This document shows positions 2,893 to 43,265 of a stretch of 64,000 nt of DNA, piece after piece. The position numbers were made by a program, and so were the translations under genes. Origin of the DNA: an uncultured Candidatus Cenarchaeum sp. (GTDB taxonomy: Archaea; Thermoproteota; Nitrososphaeria; Nitrososphaerales; Nitrosopumilaceae). The DNA is taken from positions 1,472,161 to 1,536,160 of the forward strand of contig OY282369.1 in the NCBI GenBank assembly GCA_958295735.1, read 5' to 3'. The notes below the pieces were generated by a model. That model ran no database searches. It had not been told where the DNA came from and worked only from the letters and a program-made list of their open reading frames with translations. Numbering within the stretch: the stretch's first letter is position 1; the number at the start of each line of letters is the position of its first letter.

Positions 2893-5002
2893 CGCCGGGC
2901 CGCGGTCTTTTGCCGCGCCGGTATCCCGTTTTCCCGCCGCGCCGGCCCGGCGCACCCTTTCCGCCAGCATCCTGTTCACGGCGCTTCCGGGCGCCCGGCC
3001 GCGCAGCTCCCTCATGGCCGCCCCCATGAGCGGCCCCAGGGCGCGCTCCCCGTCCCTCTCCACCATGCCGGCGTTGTCGGCCACTATGCGATCCAGCCTC
3101 TCCCCGAGCTCCGCCTCGGGAATGGTCCCCAGCGACATCTTTTTCACGGCATCGGCTACCGTGTGCGACTCGCCCGCCATTATGCTCTCGAAAATCATCT
3201 CTACGGACTCCTTTGGTATCTCCCCGCGGGCCAGCAGCCCGAAGGCCTCCTCGATCATGCCGCCGCCGAGCAGGTCCGGATCCAGCCCCTTCCTCTGCAG
3301 GCCGGCGGTCGTCGAGCATATGGCCGATGCCGCAAAGTTGGCCCGGATCCCGGCGCCGCAGACCCTCTCCAGCAGGCCGGCGTGCCCCGAGTCCAGCACC
3401 TGCTCGGCCAGCTGCGCGTTCAGGCCGTGCCGCGCGGAGAGGTCGGCGATCATATCGTCCCACGGCATCGGGACGCCCGCGCGCGCCTCGTCCATCTCGC
3501 CGGGCGAGACGGGGACCGGCGGGACGTCGGTCTCCGGGTACATGCGGGCCGGGCCGGGCCTGGGCCTCAGGAACGCGGTCTCCCCGTCGGGCGTGGCCAT
3601 CCTGGTCTCGGCGGAGACCCCCGCGGCGGCCTGTCGGACCCTTTCGGCGACGCGGCCGGGGACGGTCCCGCACTTGGAGGGCGGCAGCGCCATGAGCAGG
3701 AACCCGTCGCCGTCCCCCGCGCCGATGGCCCTCCTCACGCGGCCCACGTCCTCGGCGGTGATGCCGTAGGCGGGAAGCTCGTCCGAATGGAACACCCCCC
3801 CCACCCCGTAGAACCGCACCAGCTGCGCTATCTCGCGGCCCAGCCTGACCCCCCCGTGCGGGGAGAGGCCGAACACGCCGGCGAACCCCGGGGCGAGCAC
3901 CGCCATCACCCTGCTTCCCGACTCCAGCGCCTTCCGCACGGTCTTGGAGCCGCAGCCGGCCATCTCCCCGGTGACATCCGACGCCGCGGATCCCTCCCCC
4001 GTGGCCCCGCGCCGCCCCAGCTCGGCGGCCACCGCCCGCATCCCCTCCTGCCGCGCCACCTCGAACCTGACCACCTTTTCAAGCTGGTCCAGCTGCTGCA
4101 CGCCCTTGACCTCCACCACGGGGCCGCCCCGCGTCGACACGTTGACGTCCTGCCGTATGGTGCCTATCCCCCTCGCGGCCAGTCCCGTGGAGCGCAGCAG
4201 CCTGCCCAGCGCCAGGGCCACCTGCTTGGTCTGGCCCGGGCCGCACCGCATCGGCTCAAGCGCTATCTCGACCAGCGGGATTCCCAGCCTGTCCAGGGAG
4301 TACTCCTTCCTGCCGCCCGAGTTGGCGACCAGTCGGGCCGCATCCTCCTCGAGGCACACGGACTGGACTCCCACCGCGAGGCCGCCCGCGCGGAGCGTCC
4401 CCCCCTGCGCCACCAGCATGGTCCTCTGGAAGCCCGACGTGTTCGAGCCGTCTATCACCATCTTGCGCATCGGGAAGATCTCCCTGAACGTCCTGGCTCC
4501 CAGCGATGCGGCGACCAGCAGGGCCGCCCGCTTCGCGGCGGGATCCACCGCGTGGGGGGGCTCCTCGTCCTCCTCCACGAGGCAGCTCGTCCCCGGGCTC
4601 GTCCGGTACGTTATGGCGTTGGACTTGCCCTCCTCGAACACGGCGGCCGGATCGTACAGGCCCAGCTCGCTCCTGGACGCGCGCAGCCTGCGTGTGAACG
4701 TGCCGCCCCCGCGTTCCGCGCCCCCGCGTTCCGCGCCCCCGCGTTCCGCGCCCCCGCGTTCCGCGCCCCCGCGTTCCGCGCCCCCGCGTTCCGCGCCCCC
4801 GCGTTCCGCGCCCCCGCGTTCCGCGCCCCCCGCGTTCCGCGCCCCCGCGTTCCGCGCCCCCGCGTTCCGCGCCCCCGCGTTCCGCGCCCCTGCACCCGCA
4901 GAACAGCTTCCTTCCGGTGTCAAGCTGCTGGTGCACCTCCAGCCCCACCATGGCCCCGGCGCGCTCGTACAGGCGCTCCGCCTCCGCATCCTCCAGCACC
5001 AC
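2884..5002 (-). CDS. gatE: Glutamyl-tRNA(Gln) amidotransferase subunit E, frameshifted
   Basis: GatE and GatD convert mischarged Glu-tRNA(Gln) to Gln-tRNA(Gln) in archaea. From the GTG at 5002 the N-terminus has the expected VGLEVHQQLDTGRKLFC. The rest of the protein (RRLRASRSELG, TTCLVEEDEEPPH-like CLVEEDEEPPH, RQDVNVSTRGG, VEVKGVQQL, and the C-terminal YqeY/tail region) lies in a different frame. The two frames meet in a 12-copy 15-bp repeat (GGAER units) at 4711-4890, where a C run has six C (4826-4831) instead of five. Removing one base restores a continuous protein of about 700 residues. This could be an assembly error or a real slippage event. The gene follows gatD by 28 nt, so the pair forms an operon. 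Confidence 0.9.
4711..4890. repeat. 15-bp tandem repeat in gatE with one-base phase slip
   Basis: Twelve copies of GCGTTCCGCGCCCCC, eight before and four after an extra C at 4831. On the coding strand each unit encodes GGAER/RGGAE. The tract is inserted between the LFC motif and the RRLR..RSELG motif, where other GatE proteins have a short variable loop. Confidence 0.92.
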
Positions 5003-20927: not shown

Positions 20928-21329
20928 TTGCCGCTAGACGGAACGCGGGGCCGGGATGGCGCCGGTCCCGGCGGCGGGGGGCGGGAGGGCGGCCCCGAAC
21001 TGGCGACGCGGACGGTCAGCGCCTCCGGCCGCTCGTTCGCGGTGGCCGTCCTGCGCTTCGCCAACGGCGACTTCATCTCGGTGTCGGAGGGCGAGGGCCG
21101 CCTGGGCCAGATGGTCGCCTCGCTGGCGGGCGCCGGCCCGGCGCCGGTCACCGCGACGGTCATCCCGTCGAAGACGGACGCGCTGTTCCTGCGGCTGGTG
21201 GCGGAGCGGGCCAGCAGCGCGAGCGGGGGGATAGCGGTGGTGTCGAGCAGCGTGCGCGCCGGGCTCGGCGCCGAGGCCGCGAAGGCCCTGATGTCCGAGA
21301 TAGCGGAGATGGTGCGGCGTGGCGCGTGA
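20928..21329 (+). CDS. Hypothetical protein upstream of the UbiD-type gene
   Basis: Up to 133 residues, of which the part from about residue 26 on (TRTVSASGRSFAVAVLRFANGDFIS) looks like a folded alpha/beta protein of about 105 residues. The start is uncertain: TTG at 20928 is the first possible, and no clear promoter box is seen. The end overlaps the UbiD-type start by 11 nt, so the two are translationally coupled. No family is recognised; it may assist the decarboxylase, which is only inference. Confidence 0.65.
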   Translation: MPLDGTRGRDGAGPGGGGREGGPELATRTVSASGRSFAVAVLRFANGDFISVSEGEGRLGQMVASLAGAGPAPVTATVIPSKTDALFLRLVAERASSASGGIAVVSSSVRAGLGAEAAKALMSEIAEMVRRGA

Positions 21330-22656
21330 CCTGCGCGGCTACCTGGAGGAGCTGGAGGGGGCCGGCGAGCTGGGCAGGGTGGGCCGCGCGGTCTCGACCG
21401 AGTACGAGATCGCGGCGGTCACCGCGAGGGCCGACGGGGGCAAGGCGCTGCTGTTCGAGAGCGTGGAAGGCTCGGAGTTCCGCGTCGCCGCCAACCTGGC
21501 CGGGACCAGGCGGAGGTTCGCCATGGCGGCCGGCTGCGGCGAGGGCGGCATACACGGCAGGATGGCCGAGGCCGTGCGCGGGGCCTCGCCGCCCGCCCGG
21601 CGGGGGGCGCCCGGCCTGTTCATGCGGAACAGCCGCACGGACCTGTCGGCGCTTCCCGTCGTGAGGCACTTCGAGAAGGAGCCCGGCCCGTTCATGACGT
21701 CCTCGATGGTGCACGCCCGCAACCCCGAGAGCGGGGAGCAGAACAGCTCGTTCCACAGGATGATGCCCGTGGACGGATCGCACGCGTCGGTGAGGATGGT
21801 CGAGGGCCGGCACCTGCACAGGTGCTACGAGGAGGCGCGGTCGCGCGGGGACGACCTCCGCGTGTCCGTGACGGTGGGCGTGCATCCCGCCGTCTCGATC
21901 GCCGGCGCGTACCAGGCGGAGTGGGGGGCCTCCGAGATGGGGGTGGCCAACGCGCTGCTGGGCGGCCGCCTCGAGCTCGCGGAGTGCCGCTACTCCGGGA
22001 CGGCCGTGCCCGCCGGCGCGGAGGTGGTGATGGAGGGGCGCATCCTGTCGGACCGCACGAGCCGGGAGTGGATGGTCGAGATGCTCCAGACGTACGACCA
22101 CGCCAGGGAGCAGCCGGTGTTCGAGCTGGAGAGGCTGTACCACAGGGACGAGCCGGTGTTCCACGACGTGCTGTCGGGCTACTCGGAGCACAGGATGCTG
22201 ATGGGCATGCCGGCGGAATCGAAACTGGACTCGGAGCTGAAGGCGGGGTTCCCGCACGTGGGGCAGGTCCGCCTGACCGACGGCGGGTGCAACTGGCTGC
22301 ACGCGGTGGTGCAGGTGCGCGGGCGGGACGAGGGTGAGCCGCGGCGGATAATCGAGCGGGCGTTCCTCGTACACAGGTCGCTAAAGCAGGTGACCGTGGT
22401 GGACGGCGACATCGATCCGGGCTCGGCCGAGCGGGTCGAGTACGCGCTCGCCACGCGGTTCCAGGCGGACCGGGACCTCGTCGTGACCGAGGACGTGCGC
22501 GGCTCCAGCCTGGATCCGTCCAGCGACCAGGAGCGCCTGCGCACCGCGAAGGTGGGGATCGATGCGACGCGGCCCCTCTCCAAGCGCCCCGAGGGGTTCG
22601 AGGTGGCCCGCATACCAGGCGCCGAGGGGATCTCGCTGGACGACTACGTGCGCTAG
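21319..22656 (+). CDS. UbiD-family decarboxylase
   Basis: A 445-residue protein of the UbiD (prenylated-FMN) family: RRFAMAAG, FHRMMPVDG, SVTVGVHPAVSIAGAY, CRYSGTAVPAGAEVVMEGRI and the C-terminal TVVDGDIDPGS are typical. In many archaea a UbiD paralogue is anhydromevalonate phosphate decarboxylase of the modified mevalonate pathway. With no quinone genes nearby, that role is more likely here than aromatic decarboxylation, but this is inferred. The HMG-CoA reductase gene at 59487 would act in the same pathway. Confidence 0.9.
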   Translation: MARDLRGYLEELEGAGELGRVGRAVSTEYEIAAVTARADGGKALLFESVEGSEFRVAANLAGTRRRFAMAAGCGEGGIHGRMAEAVRGASPPARRGAPGLFMRNSRTDLSALPVVRHFEKEPGPFMTSSMVHARNPESGEQNSSFHRMMPVDGSHASVRMVEGRHLHRCYEEARSRGDDLRVSVTVGVHPAVSIAGAYQAEWGASEMGVANALLGGRLELAECRYSGTAVPAGAEVVMEGRILSDRTSREWMVEMLQTYDHAREQPVFELERLYHRDEPVFHDVLSGYSEHRMLMGMPAESKLDSELKAGFPHVGQVRLTDGGCNWLHAVVQVRGRDEGEPRRIIERAFLVHRSLKQVTVVDGDIDPGSAERVEYALATRFQADRDLVVTEDVRGSSLDPSSDQERLRTAKVGIDATRPLSKRPEGFEVARIPGAEGISLDDYVR

Positions 22657-22672: not shown

Positions 22673-22975
22673 TCATATGCCGGGCAGCATGCCCAGGTTG
22701 TCCATCTCCACCCTGTTGGCGTCAGTCCTGATGGAGTGCGCGCCGCCCGCCTTGCGCAGGCCGACGCGTTCCCCCATGCGCCAGCGCTGGTTGCCGCTGA
22801 ATATGGTGGCGTACGTCGCGCCCCTCTTCAGGTTGGACTCCACGTCGCTCCGCTCCGCGATCTGCCCGGAGTCTATCTGCCCGCCGGTGTCCCTGTGCTG
22901 CCTGACGCGCGTTATCCTCCTGCCCTCGCCGTACTCCACGGCCGATATGAGATAGTCCGCCCACTTGTCAGCCAC
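22673..22975 (-). CDS. DUF3892-like small protein
   Basis: A 100-residue protein starting MADKWADYLISAVEYGEGRR and ending SIRTDANRVEMDNLGMLPGI. The ADYLIxAV start and the RTDAN...DNLxxLP end fit the DUF3892 pattern (about 90 residues, function unknown). It is clearly paralogous to the first 97 residues of the giant repeat protein at 26370. GTG at 22975 is supported by a TATA box (22995-23006) about 26 nt upstream. Convergent with the UbiD-type gene. Confidence 0.8.
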   Translation of the reverse strand: MADKWADYLISAVEYGEGRRITRVRQHRDTGGQIDSGQIAERSDVESNLKRGATYATIFSGNQRWRMGERVGLRKAGGAHSIRTDANRVEMDNLGMLPGI

Positions 22976-24286: not shown

Positions 24287-26365
24287 ATGAGGCGGTCCCG
24301 GATGCGCGCCGTGGCTCTTGGAGCCTTTCTCGCGCTCGCCGCCGGGCTCGCCCCGGCCTCGGAGGCGCAACAGAGCCTCACGCTGGACGGGGTGTTCGGC
24401 AATGACGACGTCCTCGTGTTTCGCGGGACGGGCGAGCCGGGCATCGCCGTCAGCGTGGGGATATACTCGCCGGCGGGCGATCACATCAAGCTGTTCAGCG
24501 CGATTCCTGGTCCCGACGGCGCGTTCGAAACGCTCGGCCAGCTGACGGTGTCCGACGTATTCGGCGCCCGCGGAACGTACGAGGCGCGGCTGGGCCTTAC
24601 CCCTGACGAGGCTCCGTCGCTCCGGATAGAATACGACGGGCAGAGGGCCTACGTGGTGCCGGACTACGTGGTGGATCTGGTCCCGATGGGCGGGAACATG
24701 AGCGTGGAGGCGGGCGAGGCCCTCTCGTTCACGGCCAAAATCACCGACGGTTCCCTGCGCGGCGTGGTGTACGGCCTGGAAGGCAACGTGCCGGCCGGCG
24801 CGTCGATCGGCGCGTCCGACGGCCGGTTCGCTTGGATCCCGGTGCCCTTGCAGGGTAGCGCGCAGGGATCCGCATACACGTTCGACGTGGTGGCCACCAA
24901 GGAAGTACTGGAGGACAGGCAGTCGGTCACGGTGGTAGTGTTTGCGGCAGCGCCAGAGCCCGGGCCGGAGCCGAGTCCAGCGGCAGCGCCAGATCCCGCC
25001 CCATCCGATGTGGCGCCTCCGGCGTTCGTCGAGCCCGGCGTGGACCCCCAACAGTACGTCGACAGGTACGAGTCGGAGCCGGCCTTCCGGCAGTGGTTCG
25101 ACGAGAACTTTCCCGGCGTGACGATCCACGCGGCCGTCGGCCTTCCCGAACCCGTCCCCCGCCCCGCGTTCGTCGAGCCCGGCGTGGACCCCCAACAGTA
25201 CGTCGACAGGTACGAGTCGGAGCCGGCCTTCCGGCAGTGGTTCGACGAGAACTTTCCCGGCGTGACGATCCACGCGGCCGTCGGCCTTCCCGAACCCGTC
25301 CCCCGCCCCGCGTTCGTCGAGCCCGGCGTGGACCCCCAACAGTACGTCGACAGGTACGAGTCGGAGCCGGCCTTCCGGCAGTGGTTCGACGAGAACTTTC
25401 CCGGCGTGACGATCCACGCGGCCGTCGGCCTTCCCGAACCCGTCCCCCGCCCCGCGTTCGTCGAGCCCGGCGTGGACCCCCAACAGTACGTCGACAGGTA
25501 CGAGTCGGAGCCGGCCTTCCGGCAGTGGTTCGACGAGAACTTTCCCGGCGTGACGATCCACGCGGCCGTCGGCCTTCCCGAACCCGTCCCCCGCCCCGCG
25601 TTCGTCGATCCGGAAAGGGATCCGAGGTACTACGTGGCGCGGTACGATGCGGAGCCGGCCTTCCGGCAGTGGTTCGACGAGAACTTTCCCGGCGTGACGA
25701 TCTACGAGGCGGCCGGCACCAACGAGTCGGCCATGAACCGGACCGCCTTCGGCCAGTGCGGGATAGGCACGCGGCTGGTGGGCGGGGAATGCGTGGCGCC
25801 CGATCCGCCCCCGATCGAGGCGGGCCCTGAGCCGCCCGAGCCGGAGCCAAAGCCCGCGGCGCCCGAACCCCCGCCCCCGCCCCGGGATCCCAGGCCCGGC
25901 GGCTGCCTGATCGCCACGGCGGCGCACGGCTCGGAGATGTCCCAGCAGGTCCAGATGCTGCGCGAGGTGAGGGACCGGACGCTGCTGTCCACCGCGTCGG
26001 GGGCGGGATTCGCGGACGGCTTTAACGCGCTGTACTACTCGTTCTCGCCCGCGGTGGCCGATGCCCAGCGGGAAAGCCCGCTTCTCCGGGAGGCGATCCG
26101 GGCCCTGATCGCCCCGATGCTCCTCTACCTGTCCGTGATGACCCTGGCGGAGGAGGGCTCGGAGGCCCACGTGGTCGCGGCGGGGTCTGCCGCCATCGCG
26201 CTCACGCTGGGCACGTACGTGGCAGCCCCCGTGCTGGCCGCGGCGGGCGCCGCTAGGCTGGTCCGGTCCAGGCGGCGCCGCCCGGAGGCGGGCTCCGGGG
26301 CCCGGCGGCCGCCCGGCCGAAAACCCCCGTCCCCGACCTTGTTTAATAGCGGCGGAGTGGGGTAA
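24287..26365 (+). CDS. Secreted/surface CFI-box protein with 48-residue repeats
   Basis: 692 residues. A signal peptide (residues about 1-27, [19 protein letters not shown]) is followed by Ig-like beta domains (about 30-220, including a putative-Ig cadherin-like stretch), then a repeat region with four nearly identical 48-residue units and one diverged unit (each with [20 protein letters not shown]). A Cys-containing link ([15 protein letters not shown]), a Pro/Glu spacer and a C-terminal domain with the CFI-box signature [14 protein letters not shown]...[10 protein letters not shown] complete it, with hydrophobic segments and a basic end (RSRRRRP). Probably exported and membrane-anchored. 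Function unknown. Confidence 0.82.
25020..25700 (+). repeat. 144-bp coding tandem repeat, about 4.7 copies
   Basis: Units start at about 25022, 25166, 25310, 25454 and 25598. The first four are identical or nearly so at the DNA level; the fifth is diverged in its first half ([17 protein letters not shown]) but shares the [10 protein letters not shown] core. Identity at silent sites indicates recent amplification or gene conversion. Confidence 0.92.
26340..26349 (+). promoter_or_regulatory. TATA box of the giant repeat protein gene
   Basis: TGTTTAATAG, centred about 25 nt before the ATG at 26370; it lies inside the last codons of the preceding gene. Confidence 0.6.
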
Positions 26366-26369
26366 GCGC

Positions 26370-29300
26370 ATGGCAAAATGGGCCGACTACCTCGTATCTG
26401 CCGCCTCCTACCTGGAGGGCAGGCAGGTGTCGCTTTTGAGGCGGCACCGCGACGAGGGCGGCAGGATAGCGCCGGGCGAGCTGGTCGACAAGGCCACCGT
26501 CGCTACCGAGATCAGCAAGGGGGCCTCATACATGACGATCTACAGCGCGGCATCCAACTGGACGCCGGGAAGCAGGATCAGGCTGTTCCGCGCCGAAGGC
26601 AGCTACTACCTGAGGACTGACGCCAACTCCGTCTGCTACGACAACCTCGGCCCGCTTCCGGACATACCGGAAGGCCGGCCTGCCCCCGCCGCGGGCGGGG
26701 GGGACGGCAAGCGGCAGCCGGGCGCCGGGGCGGCCGGCGCGCCGCAACCCCGACCAATGTCCCGTGGCGACAAGGAGATGCTCGCGGGCATGGGGGCGAG
26801 CGCGCCGGGGTCGACGGCCCCGCCCGCGCCGCAACCCCCCCTCGTGCCCGTTGCGGACCCCCGCGCCCCGCGCGAAAAGCCCGAGCCCGCGCCGCCTCCC
26901 GCCGCCAAGTCCCGGCGGGAGATCCTCGACGAGTACGAAAAGGAATACCTCGGCAGGATCGGCGCCGACGATCTGGAGGCCGGTCCTCCAGCCGGTCCTG
27001 AAACGCCCGATCTGGAACCGGAGCAAAAGCCCGGGCCCCCTGAACCGGAGCAAAAGCCCGCCCCGGCGCCGGAGCCCGAACCCGAGTCTCCGCACGGCAC
27101 GCTCCCCAAGGGCATGTCGGCCCCGCCTCCCGCGAAGCAGCCGGAGCCCGAACCGGAACAGGAGCCCGAGCCCGCGCCGCCTCCCGCCGCCAAGTCCCGG
27201 CGGGAGATCCTCGACGAGTACGAAAAGGAATACCTCGGCAGGATCGGCGCCGACGATCTGGAGGCCGGTCCTCCAGCCGGTCCTGAAACGCCCGATCTGG
27301 AACCGGAGCAAAAGCCCGGGCCCCCTGAACCGGAGCAAAAGCCCGCCCCGGCGCCGGAGCCCGAACCCGAGTCTCCGCACGGCACGCTCCCCAAGGGCAT
27401 GTCGCCCCCTCCCCCCGAAGAGCCGTCGGCGCCCGCCCCCGAGCCCGCGCCGGAGCCCGAACCCGAGTCTCCGCACGGCACGCTCCCCAAGGGCATGTCG
27501 CCCCCGCCTCCCGCGGAGCAACCAAAGCCCAAACCGGAGCCCGAACCCGAGTCTCCGCACGGCACGCTCCCCAAGGGCATGTCGGCCCCGCCTCCCGCGG
27601 AGCAGCCGGAGCCCGAACCGGAACAGGAGCCCGAGCCCGCGCCGCCTCCCGCCGCCAAGTCCCGGCGGGAGATCCTCGACGAGTACGAAAAGGAATACCT
27701 CGGCAGGATCGGCGCCGACGATCTGGAGGCCGGTCCTCCAGCCGGTCCTGAAACGCCCGATCTGGAACCGGAGCAAAAGCCCGGGCCCCCTGAACCGGAG
27801 CAAAAGCCCGCCCCGGCGCCGGAGCCCGAACCCGAGTCTCCGCACGGCACGCTCCCCAAGGGCATGTCGCCCCCTCCCCCCGAAGAGCCGTCGGTGCCCG
27901 CCCCCGAGCCCGCGCCGGAGCCCGAGCCCGCCCCGGCGCCGGAGCCCGAGCCCGCCCCGGCGCCGGAGCCCGAGTCTCCGCACGGCACGCTCCCCAAGGG
28001 CGTGTCGCCCCCGCCTCTCGCGGAGTCCCCGAAACCCGAGCCCGCCCCCGCCCCGGCGCCGGAGCCCGAGCCCGCCCCGGCGCCGGAGCCCGAGTCTCCG
28101 CACGGCACGCTCCCCAAGGGCATGTCGCCCCCTCCCCCCGAAGAGCCGTCGGTGCCCGCCCCCGAGCCGGCGCCGGAGCCCGAGCCCGCCCCGGCGCCGG
28201 AGCCCGAGTCTCCGCACGGCACGCTCCCCAAGGGCATGTCGCCCCCGCCTCCCGCGGAGTCCCCGAAACCCGAGCCCGCCCCCGCCCCGGCGCCGGAGCC
28301 CGAGACCGCCCCGGCGCCGGAGCCCGAGTCTCCGCACGGCACGCTCCCCAAGGGCATGTCGCCCCCGCCTCCCGCGGAGTCCCCGAAACCCGAGCCCGCC
28401 CCCGAGCCCGCGCCGGAGCCCGAGACCGCCCCGGCGCCGGAGCCCGAGACCGCCCCGGCGCCGGAGCCCGAGTCTCCGCACGGCACGCTCCCCAAGGGCA
28501 TGTCGCCCCCGCCTCCCGCGGAGTCCCCGAAACCCGAGCCCGCCCCCGCCCCGGCGCCGGAGCCCGAGACCGCCCCGGCGCCGGAGCCCGAGACCGCCCC
28601 GGCGCCGGAGCCCGAGTCTCCGCACGGCACGCTCCCCAAGGGCATGTCGCCCCCGCCTCCCGCGGAGTCCCCGAAACCCGAGCCCGCCCCCGAGCCCGCG
28701 CCGGAGCCCGAGACCGCCCCGGCGCCGGAGCCCGAGACCGCCCCGGCGCCGGAGCCCGAGTCTCCGCACGGCACGCTCCCCAAGGGCATGTCGCCCCCGC
28801 CTCCCGCGGAGTCCCCGAAACCCGAGCCCGCCCCCGCCCCGGCGCCGGAGCCCGAGACCGCCCCGGCGCCGGAGCCCGAGACCGCCCCGGCGCCGGAGCC
28901 CGAGACCGCCCCGGCGCCGGAGCCCGAGTCTCCGCACGGCACGCTCCCCAAGGGCATGTCGCCCCCGCCTCCCGCGGAGTCCCCGAAACCCGAGCCCGCC
29001 CCCGAGCCCGCGCCGGAGCCCGAGACCGCCCCGGCGCCGGAGCCCGAGACCGCCCCGGCGCCGGAGCCCGAGTCTCCGCACGGCACGCTCCCCAAGGGCA
29101 TGTCGCCCCCGCCTCCCGCGGAGTCCCCGAAACCCGAGCCCGCCCCCGCCCCGGCGCCGGAGCCCGAGACCGCCCCGGCGCCGGAGCCCGAGTCTCCGCA
29201 CGGCACGCTCCCCAAGGGCATGTCGCCCCCGCCTCCCGCGGAGTCCCCGAAACCCGAGCCCGCCCCCGAGCCCGAGACCGCCCCGGCGCCGGAGCCCGAG

Positions 29301-30359
29301 TCTCCGCACGGCACGCTCCCCAAGGGCATGTCGCCCCCGCCTCCCGCGGAGTCCCCGAAACCCGAGCCCGCCCCCGAGCCCGAGACCGCCCCGGCGCCGG
29401 AGCCCGAGTCTCCGCACGGCACGCTCCCCAAGGGCATGTCGCCCCCGCCTCCCGCGGAGTCCCCGAAACCCGAGCCCGCCCCCGCCCCGGCGCCGGAGCC
29501 CGAGACCGCCCCGGCGCCGGAGCCCGAGACCGCCCCGGCGCCGGAGCCCGAGTCTCCGCACGGCACGCTCCCCAAGGGCATGTCGCCCCCGCCTCCCGCG
29601 GAGTCCCCGAAACCCGAGCCCGCCCCCGCCCCGGCGCCGGAGCCCGAGACCGCCCCGGCGCCGGAGCCCGAGACCGCCCCGGCGCCGGAGCCCGAGTCTC
29701 CGCACGGCACGCTCCCCAAGGGCATGTCGCCCCCGCCTCCCGCGGAGTCCCCGAAACCCGAGCCCGCCCCCGCCCCGGCGCCGGAGCCCGAGACCGCCCC
29801 GGCGCCGGAGCCCGAGACCGCCCCGGCGCCGGAGCCCGAGTCTCCGCACGGCACGCTCCCCAAGGGCATGTCGCCCCCGCCTCCCGCGGTGTCCCCGAAA
29901 CCCGAGCCCGCCCCCGAGCCGGCGCCGGAGCCCGAGTCTCCGCACGGCACGCTCCCCAAGGGCATGCCGCCCCCTCCCCCCGAAGAGCCGCCGGAGCCCG
30001 GGCCCGCCCCAGAACCAGAACCCGGGGCCGCGCCGGCGGCCGCGCCCGAACGGCCTAGCGACCGACAGGGCACCGAAAACATCCCGGCGGCCGCATCCTC
30101 GGCGCGCGATATCGAGGACCAACTGGCGGATCTCAAAAAACAACTGGCCGAGGTCTCGGAACGCGGCGACGCCGACGCCGGCGGCGTCGCGCCTCCGAGA
30201 ATCGCGGCATACTGCATGAAGTGCATGTCCAAGCGCGACGTGCGGGATCCCGTCCAGTCGGCGACGAAGAACGGCCGCCCGGCCGTCAGGGGAACGTGCT
30301 CGGTCTGCGGCGCCAGGATGTCCCGAATGGGAAGGCTGGCCGGCGCGGCGGGCAGGTAG
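26370..30359 (+). CDS. Giant Pro/Glu/Ala repeat protein with DUF3892-like head and zinc-ribbon tail
   Basis: 1329 residues. Residues 1-97 form a DUF3892-like domain closely similar to the small protein at 22673-22975. Residues about 170-1225 are extreme low-complexity sequence: 21 copies of [11 protein letters not shown] (rarely V), separated by Pro/Glu/Ala runs of variable length, plus three copies of a segment beginning [21 protein letters not shown] short coiled coil ([17 protein letters not shown]) precedes a C-terminal zinc ribbon ([14 protein letters not shown]...[11 protein letters not shown]) of the DUF5679 type. No signal peptide or membrane segment, so cytoplasmic. It may be a scaffold with many identical binding motifs. 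Function unknown. Confidence 0.82.
26880..29990 (+). repeat. Nested coding minisatellite of the giant protein
   Basis: Repeats of two kinds are interleaved: a unit encoding [20 protein letters not shown] with Pro/Glu/Ala linkers whose lengths differ by multiples of 24 bp (ETAPAPEP modules), and three copies of a longer unit around 26900, 27190 and 27660. DNA identity between units is very high. Confidence 0.92.
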
Positions 30360-42505: not shown

Positions 42506-42530
42506 GCTCCTGCCTCCGTTCTGCCTCCCG

Positions 42531-43037
42531 GCGCGCCTGCAAGATTATCCATCCCGGCACGCCGGTCCTCCCCCGTAGCCCCGTCGTCTACGGTAGCCCG
42601 GCGCGCCTGCAAGATTATCCATCCCGGCACGCCGGTCCTCCCCCGTAGCCCCGTCGTCTACGGTAGCCCGGCGCGCCTGCAAGATTATCCATCCCGGCAC
42701 GCCGGTCCTCCCCCGTAGCCCCGTCGTCTACGGTAGCCCGGCGCGCCTGCAAGATTATCCATCCCGGCACGCCGGTCCTCCCCCGTAGCCCCGTCGTCTA
42801 CGGTAGCCCGGCGCGCCTGCAAGATTATCCATCCCGGCACGCCGGTCCTCCCCCGTAGCCCCGTCGTCTACGGTAGCCCGGCGCGCCTGCAAGATTATCC
42901 ATCCCGGCACGCCGGTCCTCCCCCGTAGCCCCGTCGTCTACGGTAGCCCGGCGCGCCTGCAAGATTATCCATCCCGGCACGCCGGTCCTCCCCCGTAGCC
43001 CCGTCGTCTACGGTAGCCCGGCGCGCCTGCAAGATTA
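42531..43037. repeat. 70-bp perfect tandem repeat array, 7.2 copies
   Basis: Units begin at 42531, 42601, 42671, 42741, 42811, 42881 and 42951, with a partial unit from 43021 (GCGCGCCTGCAAGATTAT). The full copies look identical. Each holds the less GC-rich core CAAGATTATCCATCCC, a palindrome-like CCGGCACGCCGG and a hairpin CCGTAG-N9-CTACGG. The 70-bp period is not a multiple of three, so the array is not coding. There are no spacers. It starts 26 bp after the thermosome stop. Confidence 0.95.
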
Positions 43038-43265
43038 TTCCTCCCCGCAAGACGGCCTGCCGCGCAACCGCAGCCGGCCGCCGCGCGCCCGCGTCCTCCC
43101 GCAGATTGCGCGGAGCCGCTAGGTTGCCCCGTTGCCGGGCGCGGCTTTGGCCGGGGAAAGCGCATGCTCCGGCCGCCTGGCGGCGGCCTGCGTCACAACC
43201 GCGCCCGCGGCGCGGCGGTTTCCCGCGCCCGAAAACGGCGTTGCGGTATAGGCCGCGGGCAGGCA
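43038..43265. other. Intergenic region after the 70-bp array
   Basis: About 230 bp up to the ROK kinase promoter, GC-rich, with no gene recognised. Together with the array it makes a non-coding stretch of almost 800 bp. Confidence 0.5.

Follow-up and report, generated by a model that had tools for sequence, protein, structure and literature searches.

The short peptide motif that recurs 21 times in a giant repeat protein of the Cenarchaeum-type genome studied here is a selected peptide and not a repeat oddity of one genome, as judged by sequence comparison. The motif is conserved in orthologues and in a second protein family, is under purifying selection in both, is essentially confined to these two families and has changed jointly at their two loci. 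From this pattern we infer binding, a common partner and scaffolding by the giant; that is, with middling confidence, we regard the peptide as a family-wide selected linear motif that likely docks on a common partner, with the giant as multivalent scaffold. The window, meaning the whole 64-kb stretch of DNA that was analysed, corresponds to G000:C1:1472161-1536160, inside one contig of 3,166,131 bp.

The giant gene and its neighbourhood

The giant gene and its surroundings carry the following features (window coordinates, strand):

22673..22975, minus: DUF3892 domain on its own, paralogous to the N-terminal domain of the giant (Pfam, 24.7 bits, above cut-off)
24287..26365, plus: upstream neighbour of 692 aa, a secreted-looking CFI-box-CTERM protein, whose place ahead of the giant is conserved in the sister species
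26370..30359, plus: giant repeat protein gene (P0001), 1329 aa from ATG to stop; L085:5813-7984 is among its syntenic orthologues
26370..26672, plus: DUF3892-like N-terminal domain, residues 1-101 (Pfam on family members; AlphaFold2)
26878..27425, plus: tandem 285-bp unit, 1.9 copies, with a 12-residue YExxYL segment and one ten-residue motif (TRF)
27090..29963, plus: 21 PHGTLPKG motifs in Pro/Glu/Ala linkers (codon-by-codon comparison of copies)
30111..30167, ends approximate, plus: coiled-coil-like stretch of 19 residues (read from sequence)
30210..30329, plus: DUF5679 zinc ribbon (CxxC...CxxC), residues 1281-1320 (Pfam, E 5.4e-14)

The 1329-residue protein of the preliminary description was confirmed as the ORF at 26370-30359 (+), and so was its layout of 21 motifs between a DUF3892-like start and a coiled coil plus zinc ribbon. 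The array is also overlapped by long ORFs, antisense or out of frame, which were rejected as by-products of GC-rich repeats, the frame being fixed by homology. The N-terminal domain was predicted by AlphaFold2 to fold as beta-beta-beta-alpha-beta-beta-beta with a mean pLDDT of 90.7. DUF3892 (PF13031) is described as folding into a meander of three strands plus a helix, a fold also seen in dsRNA-binding and ribosome-hibernation domains, and as being fused in bacteria to Min-Wnt effectors (PMC12419801). The giant's own domain is DUF3892-like: 16 of 21 homologues matched Pfam DUF3892 at E ≤ 0.1 (best 4e-10), but it scored 17.2 bits itself (E 0.0075), under the gathering cut-off of 22.3 bits, has no Min-Wnt fusion and was modelled as one helix between two sets of three strands. 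Fold searches with this model found nothing in PDB at E ≤ 0.001, and searches against viral models likewise gave no significant result. The C-terminus matched DUF5679 (PF18930; four cysteines) at 52.5 bits, cf. a gathering cut-off of 27; this zinc ribbon is kept in most Nitrosopumilus-type giants, and in the window giant it is fused to a motif array. Relatives of the giant have coiled-coil-like stretches at the position matching 30111..30167.

The stop codon of the CFI-box-CTERM gene lies 4 bp ahead of the giant's ATG, so the two genes may be co-transcribed. The same upstream gene contains a tandem repeat of its own at window 25022-25717 (144 bp or 48 aa, 4.8 copies, 95% matches). A UbiD-like gene lies near both motif loci (window 21319-22656, by family search, and L095:8347-9792, by eye).

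The motif array

Within the array, which is 36% Pro and 17% Glu with a net charge of -135, the ten-residue motif is exact in 20 of the 21 copies, the 6th copy reading GV. Spacings between successive copies are 95, 32, 28, 95, 46, 40, 38, 40, 48, 48, 48, 56, 48, 40, 36, 36, 48, 48, 48 and 32 aa; the 24-bp steps in which linkers had been said to vary hold for 13 of these 20 spacings (multiples of 8 aa) and not for the rest. A third copy of the 285-bp unit was found around 27630-27860, and YExxYL occurs at 26934, 27219 and 27684. The motif pattern had 27 matches in the window genome against 0 for the reversed control pattern, a count far above chance.

Across the 21 copies, 11 consecutive codons around the motif showed zero silent variation, whereas several flanking codons used two or more forms. 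Silent sites are thus more uniform in the motif than in the linkers, which indicates recent repeat homogenisation and carries no information on selection. The argument of the preliminary description, that invariance within the gene speaks for selection, was therefore not borne out, the identical codons in 21 of 21 copies being the mark of recent homogenisation. Selection on the motif, as such, gained support from comparison outside the gene, namely from the second locus, the orthologues and the second family. The two observations named beforehand as favouring neutral amplification accordingly came out divided: silent sites were uniform, but the motif was not absent outside this genome, given a second locus in other codons, syntenic orthologues with 1-15 copies and a second family.

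A second, unlinked motif locus and its protein family

A search with the same pattern located a second, unlinked locus in the window genome, with six copies of SPHGTLPKG at 2097653-2098110 (-). P0002, a protein of 405 aa ending in PSRGTMPKGF, encodes the motif as GGG ACG CTT CCG AAG, cf. GGC ACG CTC CCC AAG in the giant. It also carries LESYEKEYLARL, a near-match of the 12-residue segment in the giant, and YExxYLxR is a second module common to the giant and P0002 families.

Proteins of the P0002 type end in [KR]G[TS]LPKGF. Relatives turned up in 35 of 61 close genomes, all in the archaeal family of the window, and all 44 matches in a 300-genome sample of the phylum (44/44) fell in that family. 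Named matches in a GTDB scan belonged to Nitrosarchaeum, Nitrosopumilus, Nitrosopelagicus, Nitrosomarinus, Nitrosotalea and unnamed Thaumarchaeota or Nitrosopumilaceae; judging from these homologues, the P0002-type family is general within one archaeal family, Nitrosopumilaceae going by the named matches. No relative was found in viral contigs. In the 13 regions compared, a conserved order was seen of a membrane-channel-like gene, a peroxiredoxin-like gene and a P0002-type gene, often with a second copy (gene names by eye). P0002-type proteins are basic (pI 9.5-10.4), have a short N-terminal coiled coil and were predicted by AlphaFold2 to be mostly disordered (mean pLDDT 55.9), with helices at the N-terminus and over YExxYL.

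Giant orthologues and copy number

We assigned to the family of motif-array giants any protein that starts with a DUF3892-like domain and has one or more copies of [RHK]G[TS]LPK within a disordered linker; the window giant falls within it, and synteny was tested for the sister species. The latter (G001, 2,045,086 bp) has a giant orthologue with the same neighbours (UbiD and a CFI-box-type protein) and 15 copies of PRG[TS][LM]PKG, set between linkers that bear no relation to those of the window giant, with silent changes within the kept motif (ACC/ACT, AAA/AAG, GGA/GGG). This giant is basic (pI 9.5), cf. the acidic giant of the window, and for this reason charge-complementary co-condensation of an acidic giant with basic P0002 was set aside as a general explanation. 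Nitrosopumilus-type giants, including that of G127 (1,645,259 bp), open with a DUF3892-like domain, hold 1-5 copies of RG[TS]LPK together with coiled-coil-like stretches, and in most cases have DUF5679; the latter was found neither at the end of the G001 ORF nor in giants of the Nitrosopelagicus-like type. Across many other genomes, orthologues contain 1-5 motif copies, each in its own linker. Overall, copies per giant range from 1 to 21 across the family, the linkers turning over while the motif is kept.

The giant's N-terminal domain was undetected in more than half of the sampled genomes of the family, many of which are incomplete. Since copy number is 1 in some relatives and this domain often goes undetected, high valency cannot be essential. 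In Nitrosopumilus giants a motif-free coiled-coil unit is likewise amplified; the motif is therefore not alone in being amplified.

Selection on the motif

Read as a comparison between blocks and not as exact constraint (pS is near saturation, the sequences are related and the genes were chosen for the motif), the single C-terminal GTLPKGF of P0002-family genes gave a pS of 0.604 and a pN of 0.046 (pN/pS 0.075), cf. pN/pS of 0.90 and 0.97 at a similar pS (about 0.6) in the two 7-codon blocks upstream, and the first PRGTLPK copy of the giants (n = 19) gave a pN/pS of 0.124, cf. 0.78 in the preceding 7-codon block. The P0002-family sample comprised 37 distinct 3' ends, some from paralogues; G, P, K, G and F of the C-terminal motif were identical in 36 of 36, while Leu was written in six codons. 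The codons after the giants' first motif had a pN/pS of 0.30, mainly due to EELPQEL in Nitrosopumilus.

Confinement and joint change at separate loci

All 23 motif matches in G001 (23/23) lay inside the two homologous loci, as did all matches of a looser pattern in the window genome except two isolated ones. The isolated match GWIPKG was rejected on a codon pattern that is not that of the motif, and GSLPKG, at 132942 of the window genome, on a frame that looks noncoding. In eight other genomes, matches outside the two loci were near the control count. Genome-wide, the motif thus appears essentially confined to two protein families.

The His form SPHGTLPKG occurs at both loci of the window genome, cf. 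Lys or Arg in most other genomes, and Nitrosopelagicus-like genomes have GPHxHDE in both families. In one of these genomes (G019, 1,232,128 bp), both families end in AKANTGH, and the GPHxHDE pattern occurs six times, three per locus and partly in different codons (control 0). Such lineage-specific sharing of motifs at separate loci is expected if the proteins meet one partner; coding segments exchanged long ago and then subject to selection would give an identical pattern. A 52-aa motif-only protein, MGGPHAHDEK...GATLPKGFIKDAKANTGH, is encoded between two P0002-type genes of G019 (L197, 397500-404500), and its close relatives were found only in Nitrosopelagicus-like genomes.

Proposed function and alternative explanations

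A motif that is conserved within disordered linkers is naturally read as a binding site. We propose that the core [HRK]G[TS][LM]PK(G[FM]) is a putative docking peptide of Nitrosopumilaceae, carried by two unlinked, mostly disordered and apparently cytosolic families. The giant would gather many copies of the putative partner through its 1 to 21 motifs, while P0002 proteins, and in Nitrosopelagicus-like genomes the 52-residue motif-only protein, would bind the same partner at low valency. The coiled coils probably oligomerise the giant, while anchoring to RNA or ribosomes may be the part of its DUF3892-like domain and its zinc ribbon. Motif copy number shifts by tandem-repeat slippage or unequal crossover, a drift that may or may not be adaptive. 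More tentatively, as a possibility in which we place limited confidence, the two disordered families and the mini-proteins may form a Nitrosopumilaceae motif network at one peptide-binding hub, that is, a cytosolic assembly or condensate with repeat-tuned valency.

Repeat-number drift is a serious rival for the copy number, although not for the motif. The motif would then be selected for binding, but its 21-fold number would be neutral, a few copies being sufficient and slippage or unequal crossover having inflated the array; we consider this somewhat doubtful, if well worth weighing. That 11 codons show no silent variation across the 21 copies indicates very recent amplification, relatives manage with 1-5 copies, and the neighbouring gene and other sites in the window hold near-perfect tandem arrays. 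Repeat-rich proteins are common in these lineages, and C. symbiosum and N. maritimus head the listed archaea in compositional order (PMC3836704). However, two Cenarchaeum-type genomes have expanded the array in different linkers (21 vs. 15 copies), and the sister array retains the motif despite silent changes. It is improbable, in our estimate, that the array is a bulk charged disordered spacer, an entropic bristle or linker of the end domains in which the motif is mere structural punctuation: the Pro- and Glu-rich composition, the net charge of the array and the conservation of the end domains in relatives would suit such a role, but the sign of the charge is not conserved (the sister giant having a pI of 9.5) while the motif is, its pN/pS is low, and proteins of a second family have it at their very C-terminal end. 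We give hardly any credence to a processing or sorting signal, whether an LPxTG-like sortase site or the cleavage site of a multi-copy peptide precursor. LPKG superficially resembles LPxTG and the spacing is regular, as in such precursors, but by eye neither the giant nor the second family shows an evident signal peptide or transmembrane segment, and beyond the C-terminal copy there is no tail that could be cleaved off. To our knowledge, the motif is not among archaeosortase signals.

The preferred reading, a docking motif presented by a multivalent scaffold, has counterparts in CsoS2 and EPYC1, in which a disordered chain bears a repeated short conserved motif in variable linkers. The giant would work alike, a functional analogy that implies no membership; its motif is not known from those systems, and it has no link to RuBisCO. 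Linear-motif scaffolding has, as far as we know, been studied in depth in eukaryotes and in a few bacterial systems and hardly in archaea. The open literature searched on disorder and tandem repeats in these archaea yielded no description of these proteins, nothing was found there on DUF5679, and DUF3892 was found in passing only. The result is purifying selection on one motif in two otherwise fast-evolving disordered families without assigned function, one of which, the P0002 family, is spread throughout a family of ammonia oxidisers that is abundant worldwide and among the commonest marine archaea. Orthologues occur in a cultivable species, the ten-residue motif or KGTLPKGF with a free carboxylate offers a short peptide bait, and the giants provide a natural valency series, from 1 to 21, of one motif.

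Additional observations

Two further tandem arrays were found in the window, one of 70 bp at 42527-43049 (7.5 copies, 99% matches) and one of 15 bp at 4704-4890 (12.4 copies). A PDB match between the P0002-family profile and CFA/I fimbrial fusions was attributed to chance, no single stretch passing alone, and weak Pfam matches of the family (TFIIA, Virilizer), below cut-off or scattered, were discarded as composition artefacts. P0002-type proteins of several genera (L050, L053, L041, L033 and L034) have Lys/Arg/Thr-rich, histone-H1-like N-terminal tails, a composition that hints at nucleic-acid binding in some members. One P0002-type protein (L055, in G004) has four copies of PHETLPKG, in which Glu replaces the first Gly. 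A minus-strand frame of 385 aa in G019 (L209, 519000-525500) has YEQKYL, GATLPKGY and GGPHAEEEK, without a DUF3892-like start.
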